NCBI RefSeq assembly: GCF_021353235.1
Contig: NZ_JAJTWT010000004.1
Location: forward strand, 1 to 64,000
Direction: 5' to 3'
Source: Pelomonas caseinilytica
GTDB lineage: Bacteria > Pseudomonadota > Gammaproteobacteria > Burkholderiales > Burkholderiaceae_C
DNA length: 64,000 nt
This document shows positions 22,541 through 38,189 of this stretch, piece by piece (the first letter of the stretch is position 1; each line of letters opens with the position of its first letter). Below the pieces are notes generated by a model. It saw nothing but the letters and a program-made list of their open reading frames with translations. It did no database searches and was not told the DNA's origin. The position numbers were made by a program, and so were the translations under genes.

Positions 22541-22927
22541 ATGCATCGCCTGCCGATCACGCACCGCACCGCCCGCCGCTCGGCGTGGTGGCTGGTGGCC
22601 GTGTTCCTGCTGGGCGTGCTGGCGCCGGGACTGAGCGCAGCCCTGGCCCATGCGCGCGGCGGCGATGCGGCCTGGCAGGACGTCTGCCGGGCGCCCTCGG
22701 CGACCCGGGCCGCCGAGCCCGCACCCATCGAGGCCGCGCTGGACCTGCTGGCCCACGGCCACTGCCCGGCCTGCCACATCCATCACGCCGACCTGGCTGG
22801 CCCGCCCGCGGCGCCCCAGGCTCTGCTGCGCAGCGACCTCGCCACCGAGGCGCCCGAGCGCTTCTGGACCGCCCCGGTCACCGCCCACGCCTGGCGTCCC
22901 GCCAGCGCGCGCGCCCCACCGCGCTGA
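22541..22927 (+). CDS. cruR: DUF2946 protein, CruR-type copper-sensing upstream ORF
   Basis: A 128-aa DUF2946 protein with one N-terminal hydrophobic helix (WWLVAVFLLGVLAPGL), a C75-P-A-C78 motif followed by histidines, and the sequence RAPPR at the very C-terminus. In Bordetella pertussis, the DUF2946 protein CruR heads a TonB-receptor operon. Nascent CruR senses copper through CXXC, and a C-terminal RAPP motif stalls the ribosome; copper relieves the stall and allows Rho termination before the receptor gene. Both hallmarks and the downstream TonB receptor are present here, so I infer the same regulation. The spacer to the receptor is 86 nt. Confidence 0.8.
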   Translation: MHRLPITHRTARRSAWWLVAVFLLGVLAPGLSAALAHARGGDAAWQDVCRAPSATRAAEPAPIEAALDLLAHGHCPACHIHHADLAGPPAAPQALLRSDLATEAPERFWTAPVTAHAWRPASARAPPR

Positions 22928-23013: not shown

Positions 23014-25377
23014 ATGAACAAAACTGCCCTTGCACGCGCGGCCGTGACCTGCGCCGTGCTGCACCTGCTGGCGCCGCCCGCGCTGGCCTGCGACGACTGC
23101 GACTGCGACGACGCCCCGGCCGAAGCGCCCGCCGCCCCGCCCCACCACAAGCTGGCCCTGGTCCGCGTCCAGGCCGCCGCGCCGACCTCCCTGCCCACCA
23201 ACATCCCGACGACCCGCGAGACCGTCACGCGCGAGGACATCGAGCGCACCGTCAACGCCACCGATGCCGAGGATGCGCTCAAGTACCTGCCCAGCCTGCT
23301 GGTGCGCAAGCGCTACATCGGCGACTACAACCACGCCATCCTCTCCAGCCGCGCCTCCGGCACCGGCAACAGCGCGCGCTCGGCCGTCTACGCCGACGGC
23401 ATCCTGCTGTCCAACTATCTCGGCAACGGCGTGGGCGGCCTGAGCTTCCCGCCGCGCTGGGGGCTGGTCACGCCGGAGGAGATCGAGCGCGTCGACGTCA
23501 TGTACGGCCCCTTCTCCGCCGCCTACCCGGGCAATTCGGCGGGTGCGGTGGTGGACTACGTGACGCGCATGCCCACCCGCTTCGAGGCCCACGCCAAGCT
23601 CGGCTTCGTGACCCAGCCCTTCGAGCTCTACGGCACCAAGGCCACCTACCGCGCCTGGCAGGCCAGCGCCTCGCTGGGCGACCGGTCGGGCGCCTTCAGC
23701 TGGTGGCTCGGCCTCAACCGCACCGACAGCGACGGCCAGCCCCTCACCTACGCCAACCGCCTGGCCGCCACCGGCACGGCGCCCACCAACGGCCGGCCGG
23801 TGACCGGCGCCGTCCTGGTGCCCAACAGCAGCGGCCAGCCCTGGTACATGCTGGGCTCGGCCACGCAATACGCCACCCGGCAGGACCACCTCAAGCTCAA
23901 GCTCGCCTACGACCTGACGCCCACTCTGCGGGCCAGCTACGTGCTGGGCGCCTGGCGCAACGAGGCCGACGGCCACTCCGAGAGCTGGTTGCGCGACGCC
24001 GCCGGCAATGCCGTCTACTCGGGCACCGTCAGCATCGACGGCCGCCAGTTCGCCGCGCTCAACGGCGGCGACTTTCCGCTGACCCACGAGAAGCTGCTGC
24101 ACCTGATGCACGGCCTGTCGGTGAAGAGCCACGGCGGCGGTGAATGGGACTGGGAGCTGGCCGCCAGCCTCTACGACTACCGCAAGGACGACAAGCGCCA
24201 GAACGCGGCCGGCAACCCCCAGCCCGGTGCCCGCACGGGCGGCGCCGGCACCCTGGCCGACGGCAGCGGCACGGGCTGGCACACGCTGACGCTCAAGGGC
24301 GTCTGGCGCCCCGCCGGCAGCGGCCACGTCGTGGACCTCGGCCTGCAGCAGGACACCTACCAGCTGCGCTACCTGACCTCCAGCATCGGCGGCAACTACC
24401 TGGCCGACGGCCCCGGCGCGCTGGCCGGCAACGTGCGCGGCGACACGCGGCTGCAGGCCGCCTACGTACAGGACGCCTGGCTGCCCGCCGAGGACTGGAA
24501 GGCCGTGCTGGGCCTGCGCGCCGAGCACTGGCAGGCCCGCAACGGCCACACCGACTTCTCGGCCACGGCCGGGCAGGACTACGCCGCGCGCAGCGGCAAC
24601 TACCTGTCGCCCAAGGCGGCCCTCTCGTGGCAGGCCGCGCAGGACTGGGTGCTCAAGGCCTCGGTCGGCCGCGCGGTGCGCATGCCCACGGTGTCGGAGC
24701 TCTACGGCGCCACGTCGACGACGAACTCGCAGTACGTCAACGACCCCGGCCTCAGGCCCGAGAAGTCCTGGACCGGCGAGCTGAGCGCCCAGGGCGCCGC
24801 CGGCCCCTTCCAGTCGCGGCTGACGCTGTTCGCCGAAGACACGCACGACTCGCTGTACTCGCAGACCGTCTTCGACGCCGCCGCCAACAAGAACATCAGC
24901 CGCGTGCAGAACGTCGACCGCATCGCCACCCGCGGCCTCGAAGCCACGCTGGGCGCGGCCGACTGGCTGGCCCCCGGCCTGGACCTCTCGGCCAGCCTCA
25001 CCTACACCGACTCGCGGATCAAGGCCAACGCCGGCTTCGTCGCGACGCCGGGCGACACCCTCGACAAGTGGCAGCCCAACATCCCGCGCTGGCGCGCCAC
25101 CGCCACGGCCGCCTGGCGGCTGGACGAGCACTGGAGCGCCAGCCTCGCCGCGCGCTACAGCGGGCGCCAGTTCCGCACGCTCAACAACGCCGACGTGAAC
25201 GGCTTTGCCTACATGGGCGTGAGCCGTTATGCCACGGCCGACCTGCGCCTGCTCTGGAAGATCGACCGGCAGTGGAGCACCGCCTTTGGCATCGACAACC
25301 TGAACAACGACAAGTACTGGAACTTCCACCCCTACCCGCAGCGCAGCTACGCGGCGGAGCTGAAGTTCGACCTCTGA
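23014..25377 (+). CDS. TonB-dependent receptor with a Cys/Asp-rich N-terminus
   Basis: The 787-aa outer-membrane receptor has a signal peptide ending PPALA, then ACDDCDCDDAPAEA, a short acidic segment with three cysteines that could bind metal. Plug motifs follow (PSLLVRKRYIGDYNHAIL, SAVYADGILL, PEEIERVDVMYGPFSAAYPG). The beta-barrel ends in SYAAELKFDL, giving a C-terminal hydrophobic residue. It lies directly after the CruR-like uORF and before the YcnI and PCuAC-associated genes, so copper or a copper complex is the likely ligand. Specificity cannot be read from sequence. Confidence 0.9.
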   Translation: MNKTALARAAVTCAVLHLLAPPALACDDCDCDDAPAEAPAAPPHHKLALVRVQAAAPTSLPTNIPTTRETVTREDIERTVNATDAEDALKYLPSLLVRKRYIGDYNHAILSSRASGTGNSARSAVYADGILLSNYLGNGVGGLSFPPRWGLVTPEEIERVDVMYGPFSAAYPGNSAGAVVDYVTRMPTRFEAHAKLGFVTQPFELYGTKATYRAWQASASLGDRSGAFSWWLGLNRTDSDGQPLTYANRLAATGTAPTNGRPVTGAVLVPNSSGQPWYMLGSATQYATRQDHLKLKLAYDLTPTLRASYVLGAWRNEADGHSESWLRDAAGNAVYSGTVSIDGRQFAALNGGDFPLTHEKLLHLMHGLSVKSHGGGEWDWELAASLYDYRKDDKRQNAAGNPQPGARTGGAGTLADGSGTGWHTLTLKGVWRPAGSGHVVDLGLQQDTYQLRYLTSSIGGNYLADGPGALAGNVRGDTRLQAAYVQDAWLPAEDWKAVLGLRAEHWQARNGHTDFSATAGQDYAARSGNYLSPKAALSWQAAQDWVLKASVGRAVRMPTVSELYGATSTTNSQYVNDPGLRPEKSWTGELSAQGAAGPFQSRLTLFAEDTHDSLYSQTVFDAAANKNISRVQNVDRIATRGLEATLGAADWLAPGLDLSASLTYTDSRIKANAGFVATPGDTLDKWQPNIPRWRATATAAWRLDEHWSASLAARYSGRQFRTLNNADVNGFAYMGVSRYATADLRLLWKIDRQWSTAFGIDNLNNDKYWNFHPYPQRSYAAELKFDL

Positions 25378-25388
25378 GGAAACACGCC

Positions 25389-25937
25389 ATGAAGACCTCC
25401 CCGCTCCTCTCCGCGGCCCTTGCCTCCCTCACCGCCCTCCTCACCGCCGGCGCGGCCCGCGCCCACGTCGTGCTCGACCAGCCCGCCGCCCCCGCGGGCA
25501 GCAGCTACCGCGCGAGCTTTCGGATCGGCCACGGCTGCGACGGCGCCGCCACCCGTGTGGTCGTCGTCACCCTGCCCGAGGGACTTCGCGGCGCCAAGCC
25601 CATGCCCAAGCCGGGCTGGACGCTGACGACGACGCGCCGCCCGCTGGCCGTGCCCTACGACAGCCACGGCAAGACCATCGCCGACGAACTCGCCGAGGTG
25701 CGCTGGACGGCCAACACGCCGGCCGACCAGCTGCAGGACGACTGGTTCGACGAGTTCGTGCTGCGCGCCGTGCTGCCCGCCGAGCCGGGCGAACTCTGGT
25801 TCTCCGTGCGCCAACTCTGCACCCGCGGCGAATGGAACTGGGCCGAGCGCCCCAGCGCCGAGACCCCCAAGCCCCGTGCCCCCGCCGTCAAGCTGACCGT
25901 GCAACCGGCCGTCGCCGGCGACAAGCCCCACCACTGA
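25389..25937 (+). CDS. YcnI-like DUF1775 copper-binding protein
   Basis: A 182-aa exported protein with signal peptide MKTSPLLSAALASLTALLTA and cleavage expected before AHVVLDQP. That places a histidine at or next to the mature N-terminus. YcnI-family proteins use this N-terminal His with a conserved acidic residue and Trp to bind Cu(II), and here conserved Trp residues (PGWTLT, VRWTANTPA, DDWFDEF) are present. It lacks an obvious C-terminal membrane anchor, unlike Gram-positive YcnI. It follows the TonB receptor by 11 bp and precedes the next receptor by 1 bp. Confidence 0.88.
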   Translation: MKTSPLLSAALASLTALLTAGAARAHVVLDQPAAPAGSSYRASFRIGHGCDGAATRVVVVTLPEGLRGAKPMPKPGWTLTTTRRPLAVPYDSHGKTIADELAEVRWTANTPADQLQDDWFDEFVLRAVLPAEPGELWFSVRQLCTRGEWNWAERPSAETPKPRAPAVKLTVQPAVAGDKPHH

Positions 25938-25938
25938 C

Positions 25939-28122
25939 ATGCACGACCAGAACTTCCCCCGCGCGGGCCTGCGGGCCGCCGCGCCCATCAGCCTCGCCTG
26001 CCTCCTCGCCTGCCTCCCCGCCGTGCCCGCCTCGGCCCAGGTGCTTGCCGCCACGCTGGAGCGCGTCTCGGTCAGCGGCACGGCCGCCGGCCTGGCCGCG
26101 CCCGCCGGCAGCCCCTCGCGCCTCGGGCTGAGCCTGCAGCAGACGCCGGCCAGCGTCACCGTCATCGACCGCGAGGCCCTGGAGGCGCGCGGCGCCGCCA
26201 ACACCCAGGACCTGCTCAAGGGCGTGCCCGGCGTCGTCTTCGCCGACCCGCCGGGCTCGGCCGGCAGCGTCTACTACCGCGGCTTCGGCGCCAGCTCGCT
26301 GGCCCAGCTCTACAACGGCATCAGCGTGCAGTACGACGCCATCGCCGCGCGGCCGGTGGACAGCTGGATCATCGAGCGCCTGGAAGCCATCGGCGGGCCG
26401 TCCAGCTTCCTCAACGGCTCGGGCGCCGTCGGCGGCACGATCAACGTCGTCACCAAGGTGGCCGACACCAGCGGCGACCTGGCGCGCCTGGTCGTCGGCC
26501 TGGGCGACCGCGCCCAGCTCGCCGGCAGCTGGCAGCGCGGCCTGGGCGATGGCGGCCAGGTGCTGCGCGTGGAGCTCAACCGCACCGAGGGCGCGCTCTG
26601 GACGCAAGGCCGCGACCGCAGCGCCTGGCAGGCCAGCGCCTCCTGGCGCGCGCCGCTGGCGCCGGGCCTGGTGCACACGCTGGCCCTGGAGCGCCAGCAC
26701 GAGCGCGTGACCCAGCCCTACTGGGGCACGCCCATGCTGCGGTCCGCGGACGGCAGCGTCAGCGGCGCACTGCGCTTCGACCCCGGCACCTACGGCATCA
26801 ACTACAACGTCGTCGATGGCCGCTACGAGCAGGACGTGGACTGGGCTCGCTCCATCACCGAGTGGACGCCGTCGCCCGGCACGCGCGTGAGCCACACCCT
26901 CTACCACTACGGCGCGCTGCGCGACTACGACAACGTCGAGTCCTACGCCTTCAAGGCGGGCAACACCCGGGTCGAGCGCTCCAGCGCCCTGCTGCAGCGC
27001 CACGACCAGCGCGTCAGCGGCAGCCGGCTGGAGGTCAGCCAGGCCGCGAGCATCGCCGGCCGGCGCTCGGACTTCGCCTTCGGCTGGGACTGGAGCTTCA
27101 ACCAGCAGACGCGCTTCCCGCTGTCGGTGGCCGGCCCCTTCGACCTCACCGACCCCTACGCGCCGCGCGACACCTACTTCCTGCAGACGCCCGGCATCAC
27201 GCGCACCTACACGCCCGGCGCGACGAACCTGCTGCGCAGCTTCGCCCTCTTCGCCGAGAACCGCACCGAGCTGGGCGGCGGCTGGGCGGTGGTAAGCGCG
27301 CTGCGGGCCGACCGCATTGCGCTGGACGTGCGCAACCACCGCGCCGCCAGCGCCAGCAACCCGGCGCTGTTCAACACCCGCTTCTCGCCGCTGACCGGCC
27401 GGCTCGGGCTGGTGAAGGACCTGAGCGCCGACTGGCAGGTCTATGCCCAGGCCAGCACCGCGGCCGACCCGCCCGCCGGCGTGCTCGCCACCGCCGGCTT
27501 CTCGGCCCTGCGCGACTTCGACCTCACGCGCGGCCAGCAGGTCGAGCTCGGCAGCAAGCTCGGCTTCGACCGCGGTCGCGGCTGGGCGACGCTGGCCGTC
27601 TACGACATCAAGCGCCGCCATCTCGCCATCACCGATCCCAACGACCGCACCCAGGTCATCCCGGTCGGTGCCCAGAGCAGCCGCGGCGTGGAGCTGAACG
27701 CGCACTGGCGGGCGAGTGCGCAGTGGACGCTCGCGGCCCAGGCCAGCGCCACGCGGGCGCGCTACGACGACTTCGTCGAGGTCGTCGGCAGCGCCACCGT
27801 GTCGCGCGCCGGCAACCGGCCGGCCAACGTGCCGGTGGTGGTGGCCGGCGCCAGCGCCGACTGGCGGCCCAACGAGGCCCTGGTGCTCGGCGCCGACTGG
27901 CGCTACGTGGGCCAGCGCTATGCCAACACCGCCAACACGGTCTGGGACGGCGCCTACCAGCTGCTCGGCCTGAACGCCACGCTGCGCATCACGCCGCAGC
28001 TCAGCGCACGGCTGCGGGTGGACAACCTGACCGACCGGCGCTACGTCGCCAGCCTCAGCACCAGCCTGCCCTACCTCGGCGCGCCCCGCAGCTTCAGCGG
28101 GGCCCTGGACTGGCGGTTCTGA
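25939..28122 (+). CDS. TonB-dependent siderophore-type receptor
   Basis: The 727-aa outer-membrane receptor has a signal peptide ending PASAQ, a plug domain (SVTVIDREALEARGAANTQ, LKGVPGVV, SVYYRGFG, IERLEAIGGPSSFLNGSG, GGTINVVTK) and a barrel ending SFSGALDWRF. Plug wording resembles ferric-siderophore receptors. Its position between YcnI-like, PepSY and PCuAC genes suggests it may import a metal-chelate (possibly copper or iron) handled by that operon. The ATG lies 1 bp after the ycnI-like stop. Confidence 0.88.
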   Translation: MHDQNFPRAGLRAAAPISLACLLACLPAVPASAQVLAATLERVSVSGTAAGLAAPAGSPSRLGLSLQQTPASVTVIDREALEARGAANTQDLLKGVPGVVFADPPGSAGSVYYRGFGASSLAQLYNGISVQYDAIAARPVDSWIIERLEAIGGPSSFLNGSGAVGGTINVVTKVADTSGDLARLVVGLGDRAQLAGSWQRGLGDGGQVLRVELNRTEGALWTQGRDRSAWQASASWRAPLAPGLVHTLALERQHERVTQPYWGTPMLRSADGSVSGALRFDPGTYGINYNVVDGRYEQDVDWARSITEWTPSPGTRVSHTLYHYGALRDYDNVESYAFKAGNTRVERSSALLQRHDQRVSGSRLEVSQAASIAGRRSDFAFGWDWSFNQQTRFPLSVAGPFDLTDPYAPRDTYFLQTPGITRTYTPGATNLLRSFALFAENRTELGGGWAVVSALRADRIALDVRNHRAASASNPALFNTRFSPLTGRLGLVKDLSADWQVYAQASTAADPPAGVLATAGFSALRDFDLTRGQQVELGSKLGFDRGRGWATLAVYDIKRRHLAITDPNDRTQVIPVGAQSSRGVELNAHWRASAQWTLAAQASATRARYDDFVEVVGSATVSRAGNRPANVPVVVAGASADWRPNEALVLGADWRYVGQRYANTANTVWDGAYQLLGLNATLRITPQLSARLRVDNLTDRRYVASLSTSLPYLGAPRSFSGALDWRF

Positions 28123-28124
28123 GC

Positions 28125-29639
28125 ATGCGCCGCGCCCTCTACCTGCTGCACCGCTGGGCCGGCATCGCCCTCGGGCTGGTGATGGCCCTGTGGTTCCTGT
28201 CGGGCATGGTGATGCTCTACGTCGGCTACCCCAAGCTGACGCCGGCCGAGCAGATGCAGGGCCTGCCCGTGCTGCGTGCCGGGCCGGGTTGCTGCGTGCC
28301 GCTGGCCGACGCCCTTGCGGCCTCGGGCCTGCGCCAGCCCGCGCAGTGGCGGCTGCTGCAGGTCGCCGGGCAGCCGCGCTACGTCTTCGGCGACGGCCGC
28401 CGGCTCGCCGTCGCGGTGGATGCCGTGAGCGGCCGGCGCGTGACGGCCGTCGACCGCGACGCCGCCGTGGTCGAGGCCAGCGCCTTCGCCGGCGGCCTGC
28501 CGGCCCGCTGGCTGGGACTGGCGGACGAGGACGCTTGGACCCATTCGCGCGCCCTCGACCCGCACCGCCCGCTGCACCGCGTGGCCGTGGACGACGCGGC
28601 CGGCCGCTGGCTCTACGTCAGCAGCCGCACCGGCGAGGTGGTGCGCGACGCCACCGCCGCCGAGCGCCGCTGGGGCTGGCTCGGCGCCTGGCTGCACTGG
28701 CTCTATCCGCTGCGCGGCGGCGCCCTCGACGCCTGGTGGGCCGACATCGTCATCGGCCTGGCCGTGGCCGGCAGCGCGCTGGCCCTCAGCGGCCTGGTCG
28801 CCGGCCTGTGGCGCTGGCGCTTCCAGGGCCGCTACAAGAGCGGCTCGCGCTCGCCCTACCGCGGCGGCCTGATGCGCTGGCACCACCTCGTCGGCCTGGC
28901 CGGCGGCACGCTGGCGCTCACCTGGGTCGTCAGCGGCCTGTTCTCCATGAACCCCTGGAAGGTCTTCGAGGCCGCCGGGCCGCGCGCCGACCGCCAGGCC
29001 TTCGCCGGCGGGCCGCTGCGCGCCGACGACGCCCCCGAGGCCCGCCGCGTGCTGCAGCGCCTGGCGGCCGACGGCTGGCAGCCGCGGCTGCTGGAATGGC
29101 GCCGCGTGGCCGGCCGGCCCGTCGTGCTCGTGCAGGCCGTAGGCGACAGCTTCCTGGCCGACGCCGAGGGCCGACGCCTGCCACCGCTGGACGAATCCAC
29201 GCTGGCCGCCGCCGCCGCGCGCATGCTGCCGGGCGCGCGCATCGCCGAGCGCCAGTGGCTGCACGGGTATGACGCCCACTACTACGCCCGCGAACCCCAC
29301 ACCATGGGCGGCCAACGCGAGCGCCCCCTGCCGGCGCTGCGCCTGCGCTTCGACGACGCCGCCGCGCACGAGGCCGTCATCGACCCCGCCACGGGTACCC
29401 TCGTGCAGCTGAGCACACGGCCGCAGCGCGCGCAGCGCTGGCTGTTCGCCTTCCTGCACAGCTTCGACCTGCCCCGCTTCCTCGACGCCCGGCCCGCCTG
29501 GGATGCCTGGATGCTGGGCTTCAGCCTGGCCGGCCTGGCCCTGTCCGCCACCGGCGTGGTGATGGGCTGGCGCCGGCTGCGCGGCCGGCCGCGGCGCCGC
29601 GCCGTCCTTCCGTTCCAATCCCCACAGGAGACTTCATGA
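28125..29639 (+). CDS. PepSY-associated inner-membrane protein
   Basis: The 504-aa protein is of the PepSY-TM type often paired with siderophore receptors. It starts MRRALYLLHRWAGIALGLVM, has a large periplasmic domain, helices near residues 200-230, a second RWHHLVGLAGGTLALTWVVSG helix, and a C-terminal helix (LGFSLAGLALSATGVVMGW). Histidines at helix ends (LLHRW, MRWHH, FLHSFDLP) could ligate heme, so a metal or siderophore reductase role is plausible. It starts 2 nt after the receptor stop. Confidence 0.85.
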   Translation: MRRALYLLHRWAGIALGLVMALWFLSGMVMLYVGYPKLTPAEQMQGLPVLRAGPGCCVPLADALAASGLRQPAQWRLLQVAGQPRYVFGDGRRLAVAVDAVSGRRVTAVDRDAAVVEASAFAGGLPARWLGLADEDAWTHSRALDPHRPLHRVAVDDAAGRWLYVSSRTGEVVRDATAAERRWGWLGAWLHWLYPLRGGALDAWWADIVIGLAVAGSALALSGLVAGLWRWRFQGRYKSGSRSPYRGGLMRWHHLVGLAGGTLALTWVVSGLFSMNPWKVFEAAGPRADRQAFAGGPLRADDAPEARRVLQRLAADGWQPRLLEWRRVAGRPVVLVQAVGDSFLADAEGRRLPPLDESTLAAAAARMLPGARIAERQWLHGYDAHYYAREPHTMGGQRERPLPALRLRFDDAAAHEAVIDPATGTLVQLSTRPQRAQRWLFAFLHSFDLPRFLDARPAWDAWMLGFSLAGLALSATGVVMGWRRLRGRPRRRAVLPFQSPQETS

Positions 29640-30085
29640 AACACTCCCTCGCCCTCCTCCTCGCCAGCCTGGCCCTGGCCGCATCGGCCCAGGCACAAAC
29701 CGTCGCCACCGACGCCTGGGTGCGCGCCACCGTACCGGGCCAGACGGCCACGGGCCTGTTCGTGCAGCTGACCTCGCCCACCAAGGCCCGCCTGGTGGGC
29801 GGCCGTTCGCCCGTGGCCGCCTCGGTGGAAGTCCACGAGATGAGCATGCAGGACGGCGTCATGCGCATGCGTGCCGTGCCCACGCTGGAGCTGCCGGCCG
29901 GCCAGCCGGTGATGCTCAAGCCCGGCAGCTACCACGTCATGCTGATGGGCCTGAAGGGCACGGTGAAGGCCGGCGACACGGTGCCGGTGACGCTGACCGT
30001 CGAGCGCGACGGCGCAGCCCCCGAGACGCTGCAGCTGCAGGCCCCCGTCCGCACGCTGGCGCCGACTCCGGGCCATGCGCATTGA
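29636..30085 (+). CDS. PCuAC periplasmic copper chaperone
   Basis: A 149-aa exported protein (signal MKHSLALLLASLALAASAQA) of the PCuA(C)/DUF461 family that carries Cu(I) in the periplasm, classically to cytochrome oxidase. The Met/His motif is visible as HEMSMQDGVMRM in the middle and HVMLM later, matching the family H-x-M ligand arrangement, with a C-terminal GHAH tail. Its ATG overlaps the PepSY gene stop (ATGA), so it ends the first copper operon. Confidence 0.93.
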   Translation: MKHSLALLLASLALAASAQAQTVATDAWVRATVPGQTATGLFVQLTSPTKARLVGGRSPVAASVEVHEMSMQDGVMRMRAVPTLELPAGQPVMLKPGSYHVMLMGLKGTVKAGDTVPVTLTVERDGAAPETLQLQAPVRTLAPTPGHAH

Positions 30086-30416: not shown

Positions 30417-30779
30417 ATGCACGCCGGCCGCCGCCCCTGGCGCTTCACGACCTGGCTGGCCATCGCCGCCTTCGTGGCGGCGGCGCTCGCGCCCGCCCTG
30501 TCCCACGCCGTCGCCCTCTACCGCGGCGCGAGCTGGGCCGACATCTGCAGCGCCTCGGCGCAGCGCCCGGCCCCGGGCGACGACACCATCCCGCTGACCC
30601 AGGCCTTCGAGCATTGCGGCTACTGCACGCTACACCTGCCCTCGCTCGACCTCCCGCCGCCCCCGGCCCTGGCCGCCGCCCCGGCGCACGGCGTGGCCGC
30701 GCCTCGCCCGCCCCGGCCACACGCCCCGCCGTCGCCGCCCTGGCTCCGCGCCCTCCCCCGCGGGCCACCGCGCGGCTGA
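30417..30779 (+). CDS. DUF2946 protein, second CruR-like upstream ORF
   Basis: A 120-aa DUF2946 protein with an N-terminal hydrophobic helix (TTWLAIAAFVAAALAPALSH), C67-G-Y-C70, and a proline-rich tail ending RGPPRG. It has the CruR architecture, but the terminal motif is RGPP instead of RAPP and lies two residues from the end. It heads operon 2 (PEP-CTERM Met-rich protein, OprC-like receptor, Ig-repeat lipoprotein), so copper-dependent control of those genes is inferred. The spacer to the next gene is 105 nt. Confidence 0.72.
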   Translation: MHAGRRPWRFTTWLAIAAFVAAALAPALSHAVALYRGASWADICSASAQRPAPGDDTIPLTQAFEHCGYCTLHLPSLDLPPPPALAAAPAHGVAAPRPPRPHAPPSPPWLRALPRGPPRG

Positions 30780-30884: not shown

Positions 30885-31625
30885 ATGAAGCACTTCGCAT
30901 TTGCCGCCGCGCTGCTCGCGGCCTTCGGTACCGCCCCGGCCCACGCCACCACCTACACCGTCACCACGACGTGGCTCGAGCCCCAGACGCAGCCCAAGAA
31001 CACCGTCTTCCAGGGCAGCTTCCTCTACGACGAGGCCACGCACACCGTCTCCGGGCTGCAGGGCCTGCTGAGCGAGTCCATGACCGGCATGAACGCCGCC
31101 TCGATGGTGTGGCTGCCGCTGAACTACCAGCTGCAGAGCTGGCATGACGCGTCGCTCGGCGGCACCTTCGCGGCCGTCTTCAAGAACGGCACCACGGCCA
31201 CGTTCTGCTCGACCGCGATGTGCGGCAGCCCGACGGACGACTGGTCGCCCCAGACGGGCTTGGCCGTCGGCGGCATCTACGCCGGCTTCCCGGTCGCCCG
31301 CAACAACGCCGGCAATGCCTACGCGCTGATCTTCGTGCCCGACAACCCGACCGCCGCCCTCACGCAGGCGCAGGTCGACAAGCTGGCCTATGCCGACTGC
31401 ACGCCCACGGCACCGGGCGGAATGATGATGGGCGGCGGCATGATGGGCGCGGTGTGCATGACCGGCACCAGCCTCGCGGGCTACGGCGCGGTCGGCACCA
31501 TGGACGGCTACCCGGTGTCGCAGACCATCGCGGCCGCCGTGCCCGAGCCCGACAGCTACGCCCTGCTCCTGGCCGGCCTGGGCCTGATGGGGGCCCTGGT
31601 GCGGCGCCGCCAACGCGAGGCCTGA
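30885..31625 (+). CDS. Met-rich secreted protein with PEP-CTERM anchor
   Basis: A 246-aa exported protein: signal peptide ending PAHA, a domain that I do not recognise, and a C-terminal sorting signal VPEPDSYALLLAGLGLMGAL followed by RRRQR, typical for exosortase. The domain contains QTQPKNTVFQGSF, LNYQLQSWHDASLGG, DDWSPQTGLAVGGIYAGFP, and the metal-ligand-like PGGMMMGGGMMGAVCMTGT. The same domain recurs at the C-terminus of the lipoprotein at 33847-36318. Position between a CruR-like uORF and an OprC-like receptor supports copper capture at the surface (inference). Confidence 0.8.
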   Translation: MKHFAFAAALLAAFGTAPAHATTYTVTTTWLEPQTQPKNTVFQGSFLYDEATHTVSGLQGLLSESMTGMNAASMVWLPLNYQLQSWHDASLGGTFAAVFKNGTTATFCSTAMCGSPTDDWSPQTGLAVGGIYAGFPVARNNAGNAYALIFVPDNPTAALTQAQVDKLAYADCTPTAPGGMMMGGGMMGAVCMTGTSLAGYGAVGTMDGYPVSQTIAAAVPEPDSYALLLAGLGLMGALVRRRQREA

Positions 31626-31630
31626 GCGCC

Positions 31631-33856
31631 ATGCGCCGTCCTCTTCGCTTGCTGGCGGCGGCCGGCCTGGCGCTGGCCGCCCTGCGCGTGCTGGCGCAGG
31701 CCACGCCCGAGGCTCCGCCGGCCGCGGCCAGCGCGCCGCAGCCGCTGCCCCGCCAGGTCGTCACCGGCACGGCGCGGGAGGACGGCCTCTTCGCCGCGCG
31801 CGCCAGCGCGGCCCAGCTCGCCCGCAGCCGCTCGGCCACGGGCGACAGCGCCCGGCTGCTGCAGGACCTGCCGGGCGTGAGCCTGTACGGGGCCGGCGGG
31901 GTCTCGAGCCTGCCGGCCGTGCACGGCCTGGCCGACGACCGGCTGCGCACCCAGGTCGACGGTATGGACCTCGTCGCCGCCTGTCCCAACCACATGAACC
32001 CGGCCCTGTCCTACATCGACCCCGCCGCCGTGGGCAGCGTGAAGGTCTATGCCGGCATCAGCCCGGTCAGCGTCGGCGGCGACAGCATCGGCGGCACCGT
32101 CCAGATCGAAGCGGCCGTGCCCGAGTTCGCCGCCGAAGGCGAGGGCCCGCTCGTGCACGGCCGGTGGTCCGGCTTCTGGCGCAGCAACGGCCGCGCGCAC
32201 GGCAGCAACGCCTCGGCCACCTTCGCCACCGAGCAGCTGAGCGTGAGCCTCGCGGCGGCCACGTCGCGGCAGCGGAACTTCCATGCCGGCGGCGCGTTCA
32301 AGCCCGCCGCGCCGGGTTCGGAGACGGGGCCGGTCATCCCCGGCGACGAGGTGGCCTCCAGCGCCTACCAGGCCCGCAACGAGGAAGTGCGCCTGGCCTG
32401 GCGCGAGGCCCGGCATCTCGTGCAGCTCTCGTTCGGCCACCAGCGCATCGGCTTCGAGGGCTTCCCGAACCAGCGCATGGACATGACGGACAACCTCGGC
32501 CGTCAGGCCCACCTGCGCTACACGGGCCGCTTCGACTGGGGCCGCCTGCAGGGCCGGCTCTGGCAGCAGAAGGTCCACCACGCGATGGACATGGGCCCGG
32601 ACCGCTACTTCTACGGCTTCGGCATGCCCATGCTGACCGAGGCGACGACGCGCGGCATGCAGGCCCAGGCGGACATCGACGTGGGCGAAAGCGACACGCT
32701 GCGCCTGGGCGCCGAAAGGCAGACCTACGTGCTCTACGACTGGTGGCCGCCCGTGGGTGGCTCCATGGGGCCCAACGCCTTCTGGAACGTCGACGACGGC
32801 CGGCGGCTGCGCTCCGGCGCCTTCGCCGAGTGGGAGGCGCACTGGGGCGGCGCGTGGACGACGCTGGCCGGCGTGCGGGGCGACCGCGTCGTGACCGATG
32901 CCGCCACGGTGCAGGGTTATGACAACGGCCTGGGCGCCATCTGGGGCAACGAGGCGGCGGCCTTCAACGCGCTGCACCACCGCCGCGGCGACAACCTGCT
33001 GGACCTCGCGCTGACCGCGCGCTACCAGCCCGACGCCCGCCAGTCCTACGAGCTCGGCATCGCGCGCAAGGGCCACGCGCCCAACCTCTACCAGCGCTAC
33101 CCGTGGTCCACGCAGCCGATGGCGGCACTGATGAACAACTTCGTCGGCGACGGCAACGGCTACGTCGGCAACGGCACGCTGCGTCCCGAGACGGCCCACA
33201 CCCTCGGCCTGAACGCCGCGTGGCGGGACGCCGCGGGCGAGGACTGGGAACTCAAGGCCGCAGCCTACCTGACGCGGGTGCGCGACTTCATGGACGCTCG
33301 GCGTTGCGACTTCGGCCAGTGCGGCGCCGCCAATGCCACGGCGGCCACGGGCTTCCTGCTGCTCCAGTACGCCAACGCGCCGGCTCGGCTGTACGGCCTG
33401 GACCTCTCCGGCCACCGGCGGCTGGCCCACGGCGAGGGCGGCGAGTGGAGCGCCGCCTTCGTGCTGGCCGTCGTGCGCGGGCGCAACCGCGCGACCGGCG
33501 ACGGCCTCTACAACCTCATGCCCGACAACCTCAAGCTCGCCCTCACGCACAAGCTCGGCGGCTGGACCGGCTCGCTGGAGCTGCAGGGCGTGGCGGCCAA
33601 GCAGCGCATCTCGCGGGTGCGCAACGAGATGGCCACACCCGGCTACGCCCTCGCCCACCTGCGCGCCAGCTACGAGTGGCGCCAGGCCCGCATCGATCTC
33701 GCCATCGAGAACCTGCTGGACCGGCTGCACGCCTCGCCGCTGGGCGGGGCCTACCTGGGCCAGGGCCGCTCGATGACCTCCGCCGGCATCCCCTGGGGCA
33801 CCGTCGTGCCGGGCGCCGGCCGCTCCTTCAACACCTCGGTGAGCCTATGGTTCTGA
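31631..33856 (+). CDS. oprC: OprC/NosA-like TonB-dependent copper receptor
   Basis: A 741-aa outer-membrane receptor resembling OprC/NosA. The plug contains PGVSLYGAGGVSSLPAVHGL and C118-P-N-H-M122, matching the CxxxM copper motif of OprC. H317-A-M319 (within VHHAMDMG) matches the partner HxM motif. The barrel ends RSFNTSVSLWF with a terminal Phe. OprC binds Cu in these Cys/Met/His ligands for uptake. I chose ATG 31631, five bases after the preceding stop. The stop overlaps the start of the downstream lipoprotein gene. Confidence 0.87.
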   Translation: MRRPLRLLAAAGLALAALRVLAQATPEAPPAAASAPQPLPRQVVTGTAREDGLFAARASAAQLARSRSATGDSARLLQDLPGVSLYGAGGVSSLPAVHGLADDRLRTQVDGMDLVAACPNHMNPALSYIDPAAVGSVKVYAGISPVSVGGDSIGGTVQIEAAVPEFAAEGEGPLVHGRWSGFWRSNGRAHGSNASATFATEQLSVSLAAATSRQRNFHAGGAFKPAAPGSETGPVIPGDEVASSAYQARNEEVRLAWREARHLVQLSFGHQRIGFEGFPNQRMDMTDNLGRQAHLRYTGRFDWGRLQGRLWQQKVHHAMDMGPDRYFYGFGMPMLTEATTRGMQAQADIDVGESDTLRLGAERQTYVLYDWWPPVGGSMGPNAFWNVDDGRRLRSGAFAEWEAHWGGAWTTLAGVRGDRVVTDAATVQGYDNGLGAIWGNEAAAFNALHHRRGDNLLDLALTARYQPDARQSYELGIARKGHAPNLYQRYPWSTQPMAALMNNFVGDGNGYVGNGTLRPETAHTLGLNAAWRDAAGEDWELKAAAYLTRVRDFMDARRCDFGQCGAANATAATGFLLLQYANAPARLYGLDLSGHRRLAHGEGGEWSAAFVLAVVRGRNRATGDGLYNLMPDNLKLALTHKLGGWTGSLELQGVAAKQRISRVRNEMATPGYALAHLRASYEWRQARIDLAIENLLDRLHASPLGGAYLGQGRSMTSAGIPWGTVVPGAGRSFNTSVSLWF

Positions 33857-36318
33857 CCCCACCTTCACGCGCAGCCTGGGCGACCCTGTCCTGCGCGGCC
33901 CTGGTCGCGGCCTGCGGCGGCGCGGCCGGCGACGGCGGCCCGCGCGTGCAGGACGGCCCGCAATCGATCCGCTTCGACCCCGCACCCGCCCTGCGGGCCG
34001 GTGCCACCGCCACCGTCTCGGCCCAGGCCAGCTCCGGCCTGCCGGTGAGCTACGGCAGCCAGACCCCCACCGTCTGCAGCGTCGACGCCGCGTCCGGCGC
34101 CCTCACCGGCCTGGCCATCGGCACCTGCACCCTCGCCGCCAACCAGGGCGGCAACGACCACTTCGCGCCCGCGCCGCAGGCCGTGCTCACGCTGAGCGTG
34201 GAGGGTCGCCCACAGGCAGTGACCCTCACCGCGCTGCCCGCACTGCTGGTGGGGGCCAGCGCGCAGGCCGAGGCGGTCGCGAGCTCGGGCCTGGCCGTGG
34301 CCTGGAGCAGCCAGACCCCCGAGGTGTGCAGCGTGTCGGCCGCGGGCCTGGTGCACGCGCTGGCCGCCGGCACCTGCACGATCGCGGCGGACCAGGCTGG
34401 CGACGCCACCTGGCAGGCCGCGGCGCAGGCGCTGCAGTCCGCACTCGTCAGCCGCGCCGGGCAGACGCTGGCCTTCTCGGCGGCGCCCGCCGGCCTCACG
34501 GTCGGCAGCGCGATCACGCTGGGCGCCGGGGCGAGTTCCGGCCTGGCTCCGGCCTACGCCAGCGAGACCGGCACGGTCTGCCGAATCGACGCCGTGACCG
34601 GCCTGCTCACGCCCCTGGCCATCGGCAACTGCATCGTCACCGCCAGCCAGCCCGGCGACGTGGCCTGGGCGCCCGCCACGCCGGTGAGCCTCACGCTGCC
34701 CGTGGCGGGCAAGGCCCAGAGCATCAGCTTCGACGGCGCGCCGGACATCGCCGTCGGCGGCTCGGCGGCGCTGCACGCCACGGCCAGCTCGGGCCTGGCC
34801 GTGAGCTACCGCTCGCTGACCGGCAGCGTCTGCACGGTCGACGCCGGCACCGGCCTCGTGAACCGGCGGGCTGTGGGCCGCTGCACCATCGCCGCCGACC
34901 AGGCCGGCAACGGCGTCTGGGCACCCGCACCCCAGGCCAGCCTCAGCTTCACGGCGGCCAATGCGGCGCAATCGATCAACTTCTCGGCGGCCCCGGCGCT
35001 GGTCGTGGGCGGCACGGCCACGGTACGCGCCGTCGCCACCTCGGGCCTGCCGGTGAGCTACGCCAGCCTGACGCCGCAGACCTGCGGCGTGAACGCCACC
35101 ACCGGCCTGGCGACGGGCCTGGCGACCGGCAGCTGCACCATCGCTGCCCGCCAGGACGGCGACGCCACCTGGGCCGCGGCGGCGCAGGCGACACAGACAT
35201 TGGCCGTCGCCCCCGACCCCGTGCAGACGATCAGCTTCGGCGCCGCGCCCAGCCTCACGCTGGGCGGCACGGCCACGGTGCGCGCGACGGCGAGCTCTGG
35301 CCTGGCCGTCGCCTACGCAAGCCTGAGCGCAGGCATCTGCAGCGTGAACGCGGCCAGCGGCCTCGTGAGCGCCTTCTCGATGGGCGACTGCGTCATCGCC
35401 GCCAACCAGGCCGGCAACGCCAGCTACAACCCCGCCCCGCAGGCCACGCAGACGCTGCCCGTGCAGGCGCCCGCCGGCGTGACCGTGCCCGGCGTGCCGC
35501 AAGGCGTCACGGCCACGCTGGGCACCGGCCTCGGCAACGTCGTCGTCGCCATCGGCTCGGTCGCCAGCGGGGGCAGCGGCATCACCGGCTACACCGTCGT
35601 CTCGCGGCCCGCCGGCATCACGGTGCACTCGGCCAGCGCGCCGGTCACGGTCAACTGCCCGTCCAGCTGCGCGGGCTATGCCTTCGCGGTCTACGCGAGC
35701 AATGCACTCGGCGCGGGCAGCGCCTCGGCCGCGGTGGAGGTGTTGACGACCTTCGACGTGCTGACCCGCTTCCACGAGCCTGACACCCAGCCGCGCGACT
35801 CCCTCTTCACCGGCTCGTTCACGCTGAACTCCACGACCGGCGCGATCAGCGGCCTGGCCGGCCGGCTCACGGAGTCGATGACGGGCAACGCCATCGGCAG
35901 CCCGCCCTACTACGACATGACGCAGGTGCCGCTGAGCTACCAGCTCCAGTCGTGGCGCGACGCGGCCCTGGGCGGCAGCTTCGTCGCCAGCTTCGCCAAG
36001 AACACGACGAGCACCTTCTCGACGGCGGCGGGCGGCGACGGCTGGTCGCCCCAGGCCGGCATCGCGGTGGGCGGGGTCTACGCGGGCTTCCCGGCGCGCT
36101 ACGCGACGACGATCCAGAACTCGTCCATCCTGGTGTTCGTGCCCGACGACCCATTCGCGCCCCTCACGGCCGCCCAGCTCGCCAGGCTGGCCTACGCCGA
36201 CTGCGCACCCGGCGGCATGATGGGCGCGGTGTGCATGACGGCCACCAGCTCCAGCGGCTACGGCGCCGTGGGCACCATGAGCGGCTATCCGGTGTCGCAG
36301 CAGATCACCCGGCGATAG
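33847..36318 (+). CDS. Lipoprotein with six Ig-like repeats, FN3-like domain and Met-rich domain shared with the PEP-CTERM protein
   Basis: An 823-aa exported lipoprotein with lipobox ALVAAC at residues 18-23. Residues about 39-540 form six tandem repeats of about 83 aa, each with a (S/T)xxxVCxV and (G)xCxxAAxQ cysteine pair, so each unit is probably a disulfide-stabilised Ig-like domain. An FN3-like segment follows (GYTVVSRPAGI). The last 190 residues are homologous to the PEP-CTERM protein, keeping QLQSWRDAALGGSF, GWSPQAGIAVGGVYAGFP and PGGMMGAVCMTATS. The start overlaps the OprC-like stop by 10 nt. I infer a surface rod that displays a copper-binding head near the receptor. Confidence 0.82.
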   Translation: MVLTPPSRAAWATLSCAALVAACGGAAGDGGPRVQDGPQSIRFDPAPALRAGATATVSAQASSGLPVSYGSQTPTVCSVDAASGALTGLAIGTCTLAANQGGNDHFAPAPQAVLTLSVEGRPQAVTLTALPALLVGASAQAEAVASSGLAVAWSSQTPEVCSVSAAGLVHALAAGTCTIAADQAGDATWQAAAQALQSALVSRAGQTLAFSAAPAGLTVGSAITLGAGASSGLAPAYASETGTVCRIDAVTGLLTPLAIGNCIVTASQPGDVAWAPATPVSLTLPVAGKAQSISFDGAPDIAVGGSAALHATASSGLAVSYRSLTGSVCTVDAGTGLVNRRAVGRCTIAADQAGNGVWAPAPQASLSFTAANAAQSINFSAAPALVVGGTATVRAVATSGLPVSYASLTPQTCGVNATTGLATGLATGSCTIAARQDGDATWAAAAQATQTLAVAPDPVQTISFGAAPSLTLGGTATVRATASSGLAVAYASLSAGICSVNAASGLVSAFSMGDCVIAANQAGNASYNPAPQATQTLPVQAPAGVTVPGVPQGVTATLGTGLGNVVVAIGSVASGGSGITGYTVVSRPAGITVHSASAPVTVNCPSSCAGYAFAVYASNALGAGSASAAVEVLTTFDVLTRFHEPDTQPRDSLFTGSFTLNSTTGAISGLAGRLTESMTGNAIGSPPYYDMTQVPLSYQLQSWRDAALGGSFVASFAKNTTSTFSTAAGGDGWSPQAGIAVGGVYAGFPARYATTIQNSSILVFVPDDPFAPLTAAQLARLAYADCAPGGMMGAVCMTATSSSGYGAVGTMSGYPVSQQITRR
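33961..35475 (+). repeat. Six tandem about 250-bp coding repeats (Ig-like units)
   Basis: Within the lipoprotein gene, units start at the (Q)SIxFxxxP-type strand and each contains ASSGL(A/P)V, VCSVxAxxGL and CTIAAxQxG. Six copies are visible; they are diverged enough to be old but share spacing. Such arrays change length by recombination. Confidence 0.85.
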
Positions 36319-36789: not shown

Positions 36790-37328
36790 TCAGTGCTGGG
36801 CGGGCGGCAGCGGCTCGGGCACCTTGTTGCGCACCGGCGGCAGGGTCTGCAGGTAGGCGAAGACGGCCTTGAGGTCGTCGTCCGTCATGTGGCGGTAGAC
36901 GGCGATGGGCATGGGCGGCAGCACCGGCCGGCCGCGGCCGAAGTGGCGGCCGGTGCGGATGGTCTGCACGAAGTCGTTCTCGCTCCAGCGGCCCAGGCCC
37001 GTCTCGGGGTCGGGCGTCAGGTTGGCGGTGAAGCTCACGCCCCAGGGGCCGGCCCAGGCCGTGTTCGTGGCCGACGACACCACCAGCCACGGCCCCGCGG
37101 GCAGGGCCGGCACCGGCGGCATGACGAGCTCCTGCGGATGGCCGGCGAAGAGGCGGGCCATGTCGGGCTCGGGGCCGTTGGCGCCCATCTTCAGCGGCGT
37201 GTGGCAGTCCATGCAGCCGCTGGTGTTGACGAGGTAGCGGCCGTGCTCGATACGGTCGCGGGGGGCCGGTTCGGCGGCCTGGGCGACCGCGGTGGCGGCC
37301 AGCAGCGTGAGCAGGGGAAGCAGGGTCT

Positions 37329-37332
<4 letters not shown>
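36790..37332 (-). CDS. Exported monoheme cytochrome c
   Basis: A 180-aa protein with signal peptide MKTLLPLLTLLAATAVAQAA and one heme motif CMDCH, a distal methionine region (RPVLPPMPIAVYRHM), and the helix LKAVFAYLQTLPP typical of cytochrome c subunits of dehydrogenases. It overlaps the upstream diheme cytochrome gene by 4 nt, so the two likely form an electron-transfer pair. The redox partner is not apparent. Confidence 0.87.

Positions 37333-38189
<857 letters not shown>

Follow-up and report, generated by a model that had tools for sequence, protein, structure and literature searches.

How might a bacterium capture copper ions outside the cell, and could proteins encoded beside an outer-membrane receptor do so on its behalf? 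Bacterial capture of scarce extracellular ionic copper is poorly known, and OprC, CrtA and the methanobactin receptors are among the few named copper-uptake routes (PMC12914433). The window, by which we mean the whole stretch of 64,000 nucleotides of Pelomonas caseinilytica that was analysed (contig NZ_JAJTWT010000004.1, positions 1 to 64,000), contains a receptor gene between a PEP-CTERM protein gene and a lipoprotein gene. A first-pass annotation of the letters had claimed that the two flanking proteins share an unrecognised domain, and had proposed that they scavenge Cu(I) for the receptor. All three genes were found where they had been placed. Our analysis makes it likely that this domain, here called the capture domain, binds Cu(I) at the cell surface as a partner to a single clade of OprC-related TonB-dependent receptors, to which it would supply the metal. 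The features concerned are given below, with domain residues numbered after the lipoprotein copy (copy 2) and receptor residues numbered such that residue 4 is the first ATG at 31631.

30417..30779, plus strand: DUF2946 gene (PF11162), a CruR-type leader with CGYC at residues 67-70 and RGPP at residues 115-118
30885..31625, plus strand: PEP-CTERM protein gene, with a signal peptide read by eye, the capture domain and a PEP-CTERM tail
30948..31535, plus strand: capture domain copy 1, a row of the 115-row alignment
31631..33856, plus strand: OprC-related TonB-dependent receptor gene, with Pfam plug and barrel; CxxxM is C121 and M125, HxM is H320 and M322
33847..36318, plus strand: lipoprotein gene, with a lipobox-like VAAC, six Big-type repeats, an fn3-like segment and a C-terminal capture domain
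35746..36315, plus strand: capture domain copy 2, mainly strands in an AlphaFold2 model
35878..35880, plus strand: codon of M45 in the lipoprotein domain
36202..36237, plus strand: segment from C153 to M164 (C153, M159, C163, M164)
36277..36279, plus strand: codon of M178 in the lipoprotein domain

Overlapping stops had been described for these genes. This holds for the receptor, whose stop at 33854-33856 is overlapped by the lipoprotein gene with its first ATG at 33847, but not for the PEP-CTERM gene, which ends at 31625 ahead of the first ATG of the receptor at 31631.

A domain shared by the PEP-CTERM protein and the lipoprotein

The two copies, about 190 amino acids in length, are identical at 111 of 183 aligned residues (61%), so that the shared domain is real, and no further copy was found in the 5.98-Mb, 40-contig genome at E values up to 1. 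It was also rightly called unrecognised. No Pfam or NCBIfam model was above its cut-off over the domain in the two window proteins (the NCBIfam scan covered these two and one relative); NF033554, which overlaps part of the domain and the PEP tail, stayed below its cut-off with 26 bits against 80. A Pfam scan of all 115 copies gave a single match, in one member (DUF255, E 0.0025), and a sequence-profile search of solved structures with the domain returned chance-level matches only (a cholinesterase at E 0.07; a later best E of 0.42). Copy 2 was modelled by AlphaFold2 with a mean pLDDT (predicted local distance difference test) of 97.1 and a pTM (predicted template modelling score) of 0.92, and is predicted to consist mostly of strands. 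Literature searches of openly licensed papers yielded no description of the domain, and a PEP-CTERM operon in PMC5744179 is not described as copper-related in the sections of that article at hand. The domain, its set of four Met and the receptor clade described below appear to be new.

When a species-level genome collection was scanned with a profile and the best 80 of 89 confirmed stretches were kept, 77 named loci were obtained. The carriers are labelled Pseudomonadota, Myxococcota, Thermodesulfobacteriota and Nitrospirota, with Roseateles cellulosilyticus P8 (L030) and Methylophilus sp. 14 (L038) as cultured examples. The domain is rare: it occurs in 3 of 20 genus members, 8 of 299 family genomes and 4 of 369 genomes of a class sample, with the own genome counted each time; two weaker family matches outside these eight (G262, E 4.9e-4; G029, E 6.0e-4) were fetched as loci L028 and L029. 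The alignment of 115 rows comprises the two window copies and 113 of 115 reference stretches, the partial matches L067:12531-12680 and L067:12864-13325 being excluded. In a quick tree each window copy is placed with copies of its own anchor type: the one in the lipoprotein with those of L030-L034, the PEP one with those of L030-L032. The pair of copies therefore predates the species, and a recent tandem duplication is not favoured. Two loci stood out in the collection. A run of several domain-bearing frames, one of them with two partial copies, occupies L067:9101-13889 (Rhodocyclaceae). The contig of L083, from a metagenome-assembled genome (MAG) labelled Acidimicrobiia, has a TonB receptor and domain copies that the quick tree places with those of Myxococcota, and may be mis-binned.

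Thirteen columns are invariant in the 115 copies (F21, G23, G39, M45, G77, F83, N125, Y150, D152, M159, M164, G176 and M178). Four of them are Met, and M45, M159, M164 and M178 are thus Met in 115 of 115 copies, divergent paralogues included. Composition would predict 0.5 invariant Met columns (Met makes up 3.8% of the residues; binomial 0.001, with kinship between the copies ignored). Neighbouring Met positions vary: position 158 is M in 95 copies, L in 19 and I in one, and position 58 is M in 90 of 114. Conservation in 90% or more of the copies is seen in 28 columns, none of them His. C153 and C163 are kept in 113 of 115 copies and are jointly missing from the same two, with identical replacements; judged by this pattern they look like a disulfide pair, and their loss may have been one single event. 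We considered whether the Met and Cys conservation was an artefact of the search patterns, which had GMMG and C among their elements, and rejected this, since all 24 copies outside both patterns keep the four Met. The ligand set that had been proposed for the domain, a Met/Cys-rich loop, overlaps with these residues in part only: its MMM-GGGMM stretch is an insertion in some copies, and the conserved candidates are M45, M159, M164 and M178 together with the C153/C163 pair.

One clade of OprC-related receptors accompanies the domain

The window receptor is a TonB-dependent receptor, with plug (PF07715) and barrel (PF00593) above cut-off. Its best solved relative by family profile is OprC (E 2.8e-29), with the plug part aligned to the solved protein. 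Measured with TIGR01778, the model of the OprC/NosA family, it scores 87.1 bits (84.4 in the genome search), far below the cut-off of 472.45, and the new receptors share a median identity of 23% with 12 TIGR01778 proteins. In OprC copper is bound by C143, M147, H323 and M325, and a Met track for Cu(I) has been described (PMC8610252). The aligned residues C121, M125, H320 and M322 are found without exception in the 22 new receptors and the 12 TIGR01778 proteins, which bears out the description of the receptor as OprC-like. A wider set of 83 receptor open reading frames has C121 in 80 of 81, M125 in 81 of 81 and both H320 and M322 in 82 of 82. Seven further positions (288, 337, 382, 500, 504, 633 and 718) are Met in all 22 new receptors and in 78 to 81 of 79 to 82 sequences of the wider set, and are not conserved as Met in the 12 TIGR01778 proteins.

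In 74 of 77 loci the domain adjoins a receptor ortholog (>400 bits) encoded on the same strand, a few of these orthologs being cut by contig ends. The scan query was the domain alone, so the receptor had not been selected for. The profile search proposed with the first-pass annotation has thereby been run, and it does not place the domain mainly away from copper receptors. Gene order is conserved as well, with PEP copies 5′ of the receptor in 64 of 66 cases and C-terminal-type copies 3′ of it in 38 of 44. Among the 299 family genomes the receptor occurs in 34 (E up to 1e-60), including all eight with a strong domain match. In a tree rooted with OprC, 56 distinct domain-associated receptors form a clade that excludes 17 domain-free ones; with midpoint rooting the 17 domain-free receptors form a clade of their own with support 1.0. 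A search 1.5 kb to either side of the 12 TIGR01778 receptors found no domain. The domain implies this receptor, and a wider receptor family exists without the domain. Receptors with and without it are separated only by position 324, two residues past the Met of HxM, and by a few non-Met columns; at this position 54 of the 56 domain-associated receptors have Met, and all 17 domain-free ones have Phe.

Anchors and neighbouring copper genes

The claim that one copy carries a signal for sorting by exosortase was confirmed: PF07589 matches the PEP-CTERM protein with 35.5 bits (cut-off 20.7) and the genome encodes two exosortases (PF09721, E 1.1e-71 and 1.9e-69). The six disulfide-type Ig repeats ascribed to the lipoprotein were likewise recovered, with Big-like (PF22359) and Big_2 above the Pfam cut-off and the number six read from six Cys pairs at even spacing. 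A lipobox-like VAAC was read by eye at residues 20-23. The segment with CPSSC that precedes the capture domain is termed fn3-like after fn3 matches at this position in relatives; in the Pfam scan the fn3 model had no match in the window lipoprotein itself. A similar layout is seen in relatives, and of ten C-terminal-type proteins that were scanned nine had a Big-type match and six an fn3 match (E up to 0.01), two of the latter above the Pfam cut-off.

It had been suggested that the two proteins form a two-tier system. As a general scheme this is not supported, because both anchors occur together in only 8 of the 74 receptor-bearing loci, whereas 35 have the PEP type only and 31 the C-terminal type only, the latter meaning that no PEP tail follows the domain, with a lipobox not proven for each. 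Both types are present in the window lineage (L030-L032) and in L033, L035, L050, L067 and L068. Exosortase (E up to 1e-20) was found in 42 of 43 genomes with PEP-type copies and in 8 of 31 without (Fisher 2e-11), and at E up to 1e-5 in 42 of 43 and 14 of 31 (2e-7), a contrast that is partly confounded by lineage. The lone PEP-type genome without exosortase is L035, a MAG. This table covers 74 of the 77 loci, with L040, L052 and L091 excluded because they share genomes with other loci. The list of positives was compiled by hand, and short weak matches (E 1e-10 to 7e-7) in L072, L079, L084, L086, L090 and L097, all with lipoprotein-type copies only, count as negative at 1e-20. According to the quick tree seven changes of anchor are needed, three of them forced by well-supported branches. 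Since anchor type tracks the presence of exosortase, we read the two forms as alternative displays of one capture domain by whichever sorting machinery is available, with no need for a fixed relay of two steps.

The operon is headed by the DUF2946 gene, with 105 bases between it and the PEP-CTERM gene. PF11162 matches with 48.6 bits (cut-off 23.7), and the protein carries both motifs of CruR, with CGYC and RGPP, a variant of RAPP, spaced by 44 residues. In Bordetella, CruR (DUF2946) is a leader that senses copper as a nascent chain via CXXC and stalls at RAPP, the motifs being 45 residues apart, give or take one or two, and in the presence of copper it silences its operon (PMC9426467). Regulation of this kind would be expected in P. 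caseinilytica. A protective role of the domain was also considered, namely a copper sponge that holds excess copper at the surface, limiting uptake or toxicity, with the receptor as neighbour through a shared copper response. It would fit copper binding alone, and PEP-CTERM proteins are linked to the extracellular matrix. We nevertheless regard a sponge as improbable, since the domain follows one receptor clade and an operon headed by DUF2946, whose Bordetella relative is off at plentiful copper, points to a need under scarcity (PMC9426467).

Further copper genes lie upstream of the operon in the window:

22541-22927, plus strand: first DUF2946 gene (genome match 22583-22921), with HCPACH and a C-terminal RAPP
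23014-25377, plus strand: TonB-receptor-like gene with a weak TIGR01778 match (E 2.6e-5)
about 25464-25901, plus strand: DUF1775/YcnI domain, from the domain scan
25939-28122, plus strand: siderophore-type TonB receptor, from the domain scan
28119-29639, plus strand: PepSY_TM protein, from the domain scan
29636-30085, plus strand: PCu(A)C chaperone, from the domain scan

The stretch at 22.5-36.3 kb is a copper region. Both DUF2946 genes of the genome are located in the window, and up to three TonB receptors lie together with them within 14 kb. Downstream of the operon, at 36790-38189 on the minus strand, there are a cytochrome c gene (PF00034 above cut-off) and a gene with a weak resemblance to the diheme family of SO2930 (TIGR03806), for which it stays under the cut-off.

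Within 6.5 kb of the module in the 77 loci we counted upstream DUF2946 genes in 19, PCu(A)C in 14, MbnP in 16, MbnH in 14 and NosL in 4, as well as TonB-like genes in 5, ExbB-like in 8 and ExbD-like in 5. These counts are approximate, because open reading frames were chosen by similarity across loci and long false frames are present. The MbnP and MbnH neighbours bear on a further reading, in which the domain recognises a copper complex, either a chalkophore or another chelate, and serves the receptor as a co-receptor or lid on the surface, in the manner of surface lipoproteins for other TonB receptors; CrtA, another copper-responsive receptor, imports chelated copper (PMC12914433). With the ionic-copper ligands of OprC retained in the receptor and four invariant Met that favour direct metal binding, we consider recognition of a chelate unlikely.

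Other genes recur beside the module. One PEP-CTERM family (cluster 4; L052:9125-9874, L030:3251-4111 and relatives) has H-[IVL]-SY after the signal peptide and occurs near 13 of the 77 loci, directly upstream of the module in nine of these. A second family of PEP-CTERM type (cluster 22; L073:4416-5261, L099:8993-9835, L057:8941-9792 and relatives), found by 6 of 77 loci, has a WM-x-M segment and an MDHN motif and may be a second metal-binding surface protein. In L071, L072 and L076, TonB, ExbB-like and ExbD-like genes stand directly 5′ of the receptor, perhaps as a dedicated energy module for it.

A possible route for copper and its precedents

The idea of a surface copper-capture domain for an OprC-like receptor, once freed of the general two-tier relay, is supported by the coupling, the receptor ligands, and the DUF2946 gene and other copper neighbours. 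Several observations weigh against it. The receptor is missing from three of the 77 loci (L036, L058 and L105). Of these, L036 and L058 are paired in the tree and have PCu(A)C adjoining the domain, and in L105 the domain gene starts 135 bases from the contig end. A domain match is missing in 26 of the 34 receptor-bearing family genomes, and in the 17 of these 26 that were fetched the 115-copy profile found no domain even at E 1, so that in relatives the receptor can evidently function in its absence. The seven additional receptor Met also occur in the domain-free receptors, each in 16 or 17 of 17. This enlarged Met set is therefore independent of the domain and belongs to the receptor family, which lowered our confidence slightly; its use as a marker of domain-bearing receptors was rejected on the same count. 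The clade of domain-associated receptors has a support of only 0.85. Just 35 of 77 loci have any of PCu(A)C, MbnP, MbnH, NosL and DUF2946 nearby, several of the contigs being short, and some of the conserved Met could be structural.

Taken further, this last point would make the Met and Cys structural throughout, in a surface or matrix protein that is unrelated to metal and tied to the receptor by another function. Such a protein would agree with the disulfide-like joint loss of the Cys pair in the same two copies, with a strand-rich fold that gives the impression of resembling PEP-CTERM proteins generally, and with the independence of the receptor Met set, but it would hardly be expected to keep four Met in every copy while the neighbouring Met positions 158 and 58 vary, or to have the receptor beside it in nearly all loci. 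We give it little credence.

If the domain is indeed the Cu(I)-binding partner of the receptor, the following route can be envisaged. Copper scarcity would let the CruR-type (DUF2946) leader permit expression of the operon. The domain would be displayed outside the cell, at the surface or within the outer matrix: one form through exosortase processing of its PEP-CTERM tail, the other at the end of a stalk that is anchored by lipid and built of Ig-like and fn3-like segments. Cu(I) would be bound mainly by the thioethers of M45, M159, M164 and M178, in a strand-rich fold pinned by a C153-C163 disulfide. The loaded domain would dock on the receptor, and copper would pass to the external Met of the receptor, move along its Met to the CxxxM-HxM site and be imported in a TonB-driven step, after which PCu(A)C and related chaperones may take it over in the periplasm. 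The operon would then encode a protein-only 'chalkophore', in which a four-Met Cu(I) domain joined one OprC-like clade, uses the anchor that its host has available and hands copper directly to the Met track of the receptor; for this fuller picture we see the chances as evenly balanced.

The principle of a TonB receptor supplied by a secreted or surface protein is known, and by analogy the nearest precedents are ZepA for zinc and the disputed pair of azurin and OprC. ZepA is a small secreted PEP-CTERM protein of patchy distribution, like the capture domain, for which external metal capture and hand-off to an outer-membrane receptor have been proposed (PMC10957091). Compared by description, it differs in its metal, zinc, its histidines, its control by Zur and its hypothetical receptor (PMC10957091), whereas the capture domain has conserved Met, a specific adjoining receptor clade and a second, lipid-anchored form. 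Azurin is the secreted protein proposed to deliver copper to a receptor of the OprC type in Pseudomonas, but it is a Cu(II) scavenger released by type VI secretion (PMC8610252, PMC10957091), PMC8610252 disputes that it contacts OprC, and the capture domain matches no solved chain by sequence above chance. OprC and NosA (TIGR01778) share with the new receptors the TonB receptor architecture, the CxxxM-HxM copper site and a Met track for Cu(I) (PMC8610252); the new receptors, distant from them in identity and score, differ by the seven additional Met and the companion domain. The gene content of the copper region resembles the CruR/DUF2946 and CrtA-PepSY systems, with the same leader family, TonB receptors, PepSY_TM, PCu(A)C and YcnI (PMC9426467, PMC12914433). 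The capture domain sets it apart, as it is unmentioned in the sections of PMC9426467 at hand, and a term search of PMC12914433 gave 0 occurrences of 'lipoprotein' and of 'PEP-CTERM'.

With the gene of a dedicated capture protein next to that of its receptor, the hand-off of copper from protein to receptor would become directly testable, and the operon supplies both partners, four Met as candidate ligands and position 324 as a candidate position on the receptor. If our reading is true, it would give a function to an unnamed domain and a concrete task to some PEP-CTERM proteins.

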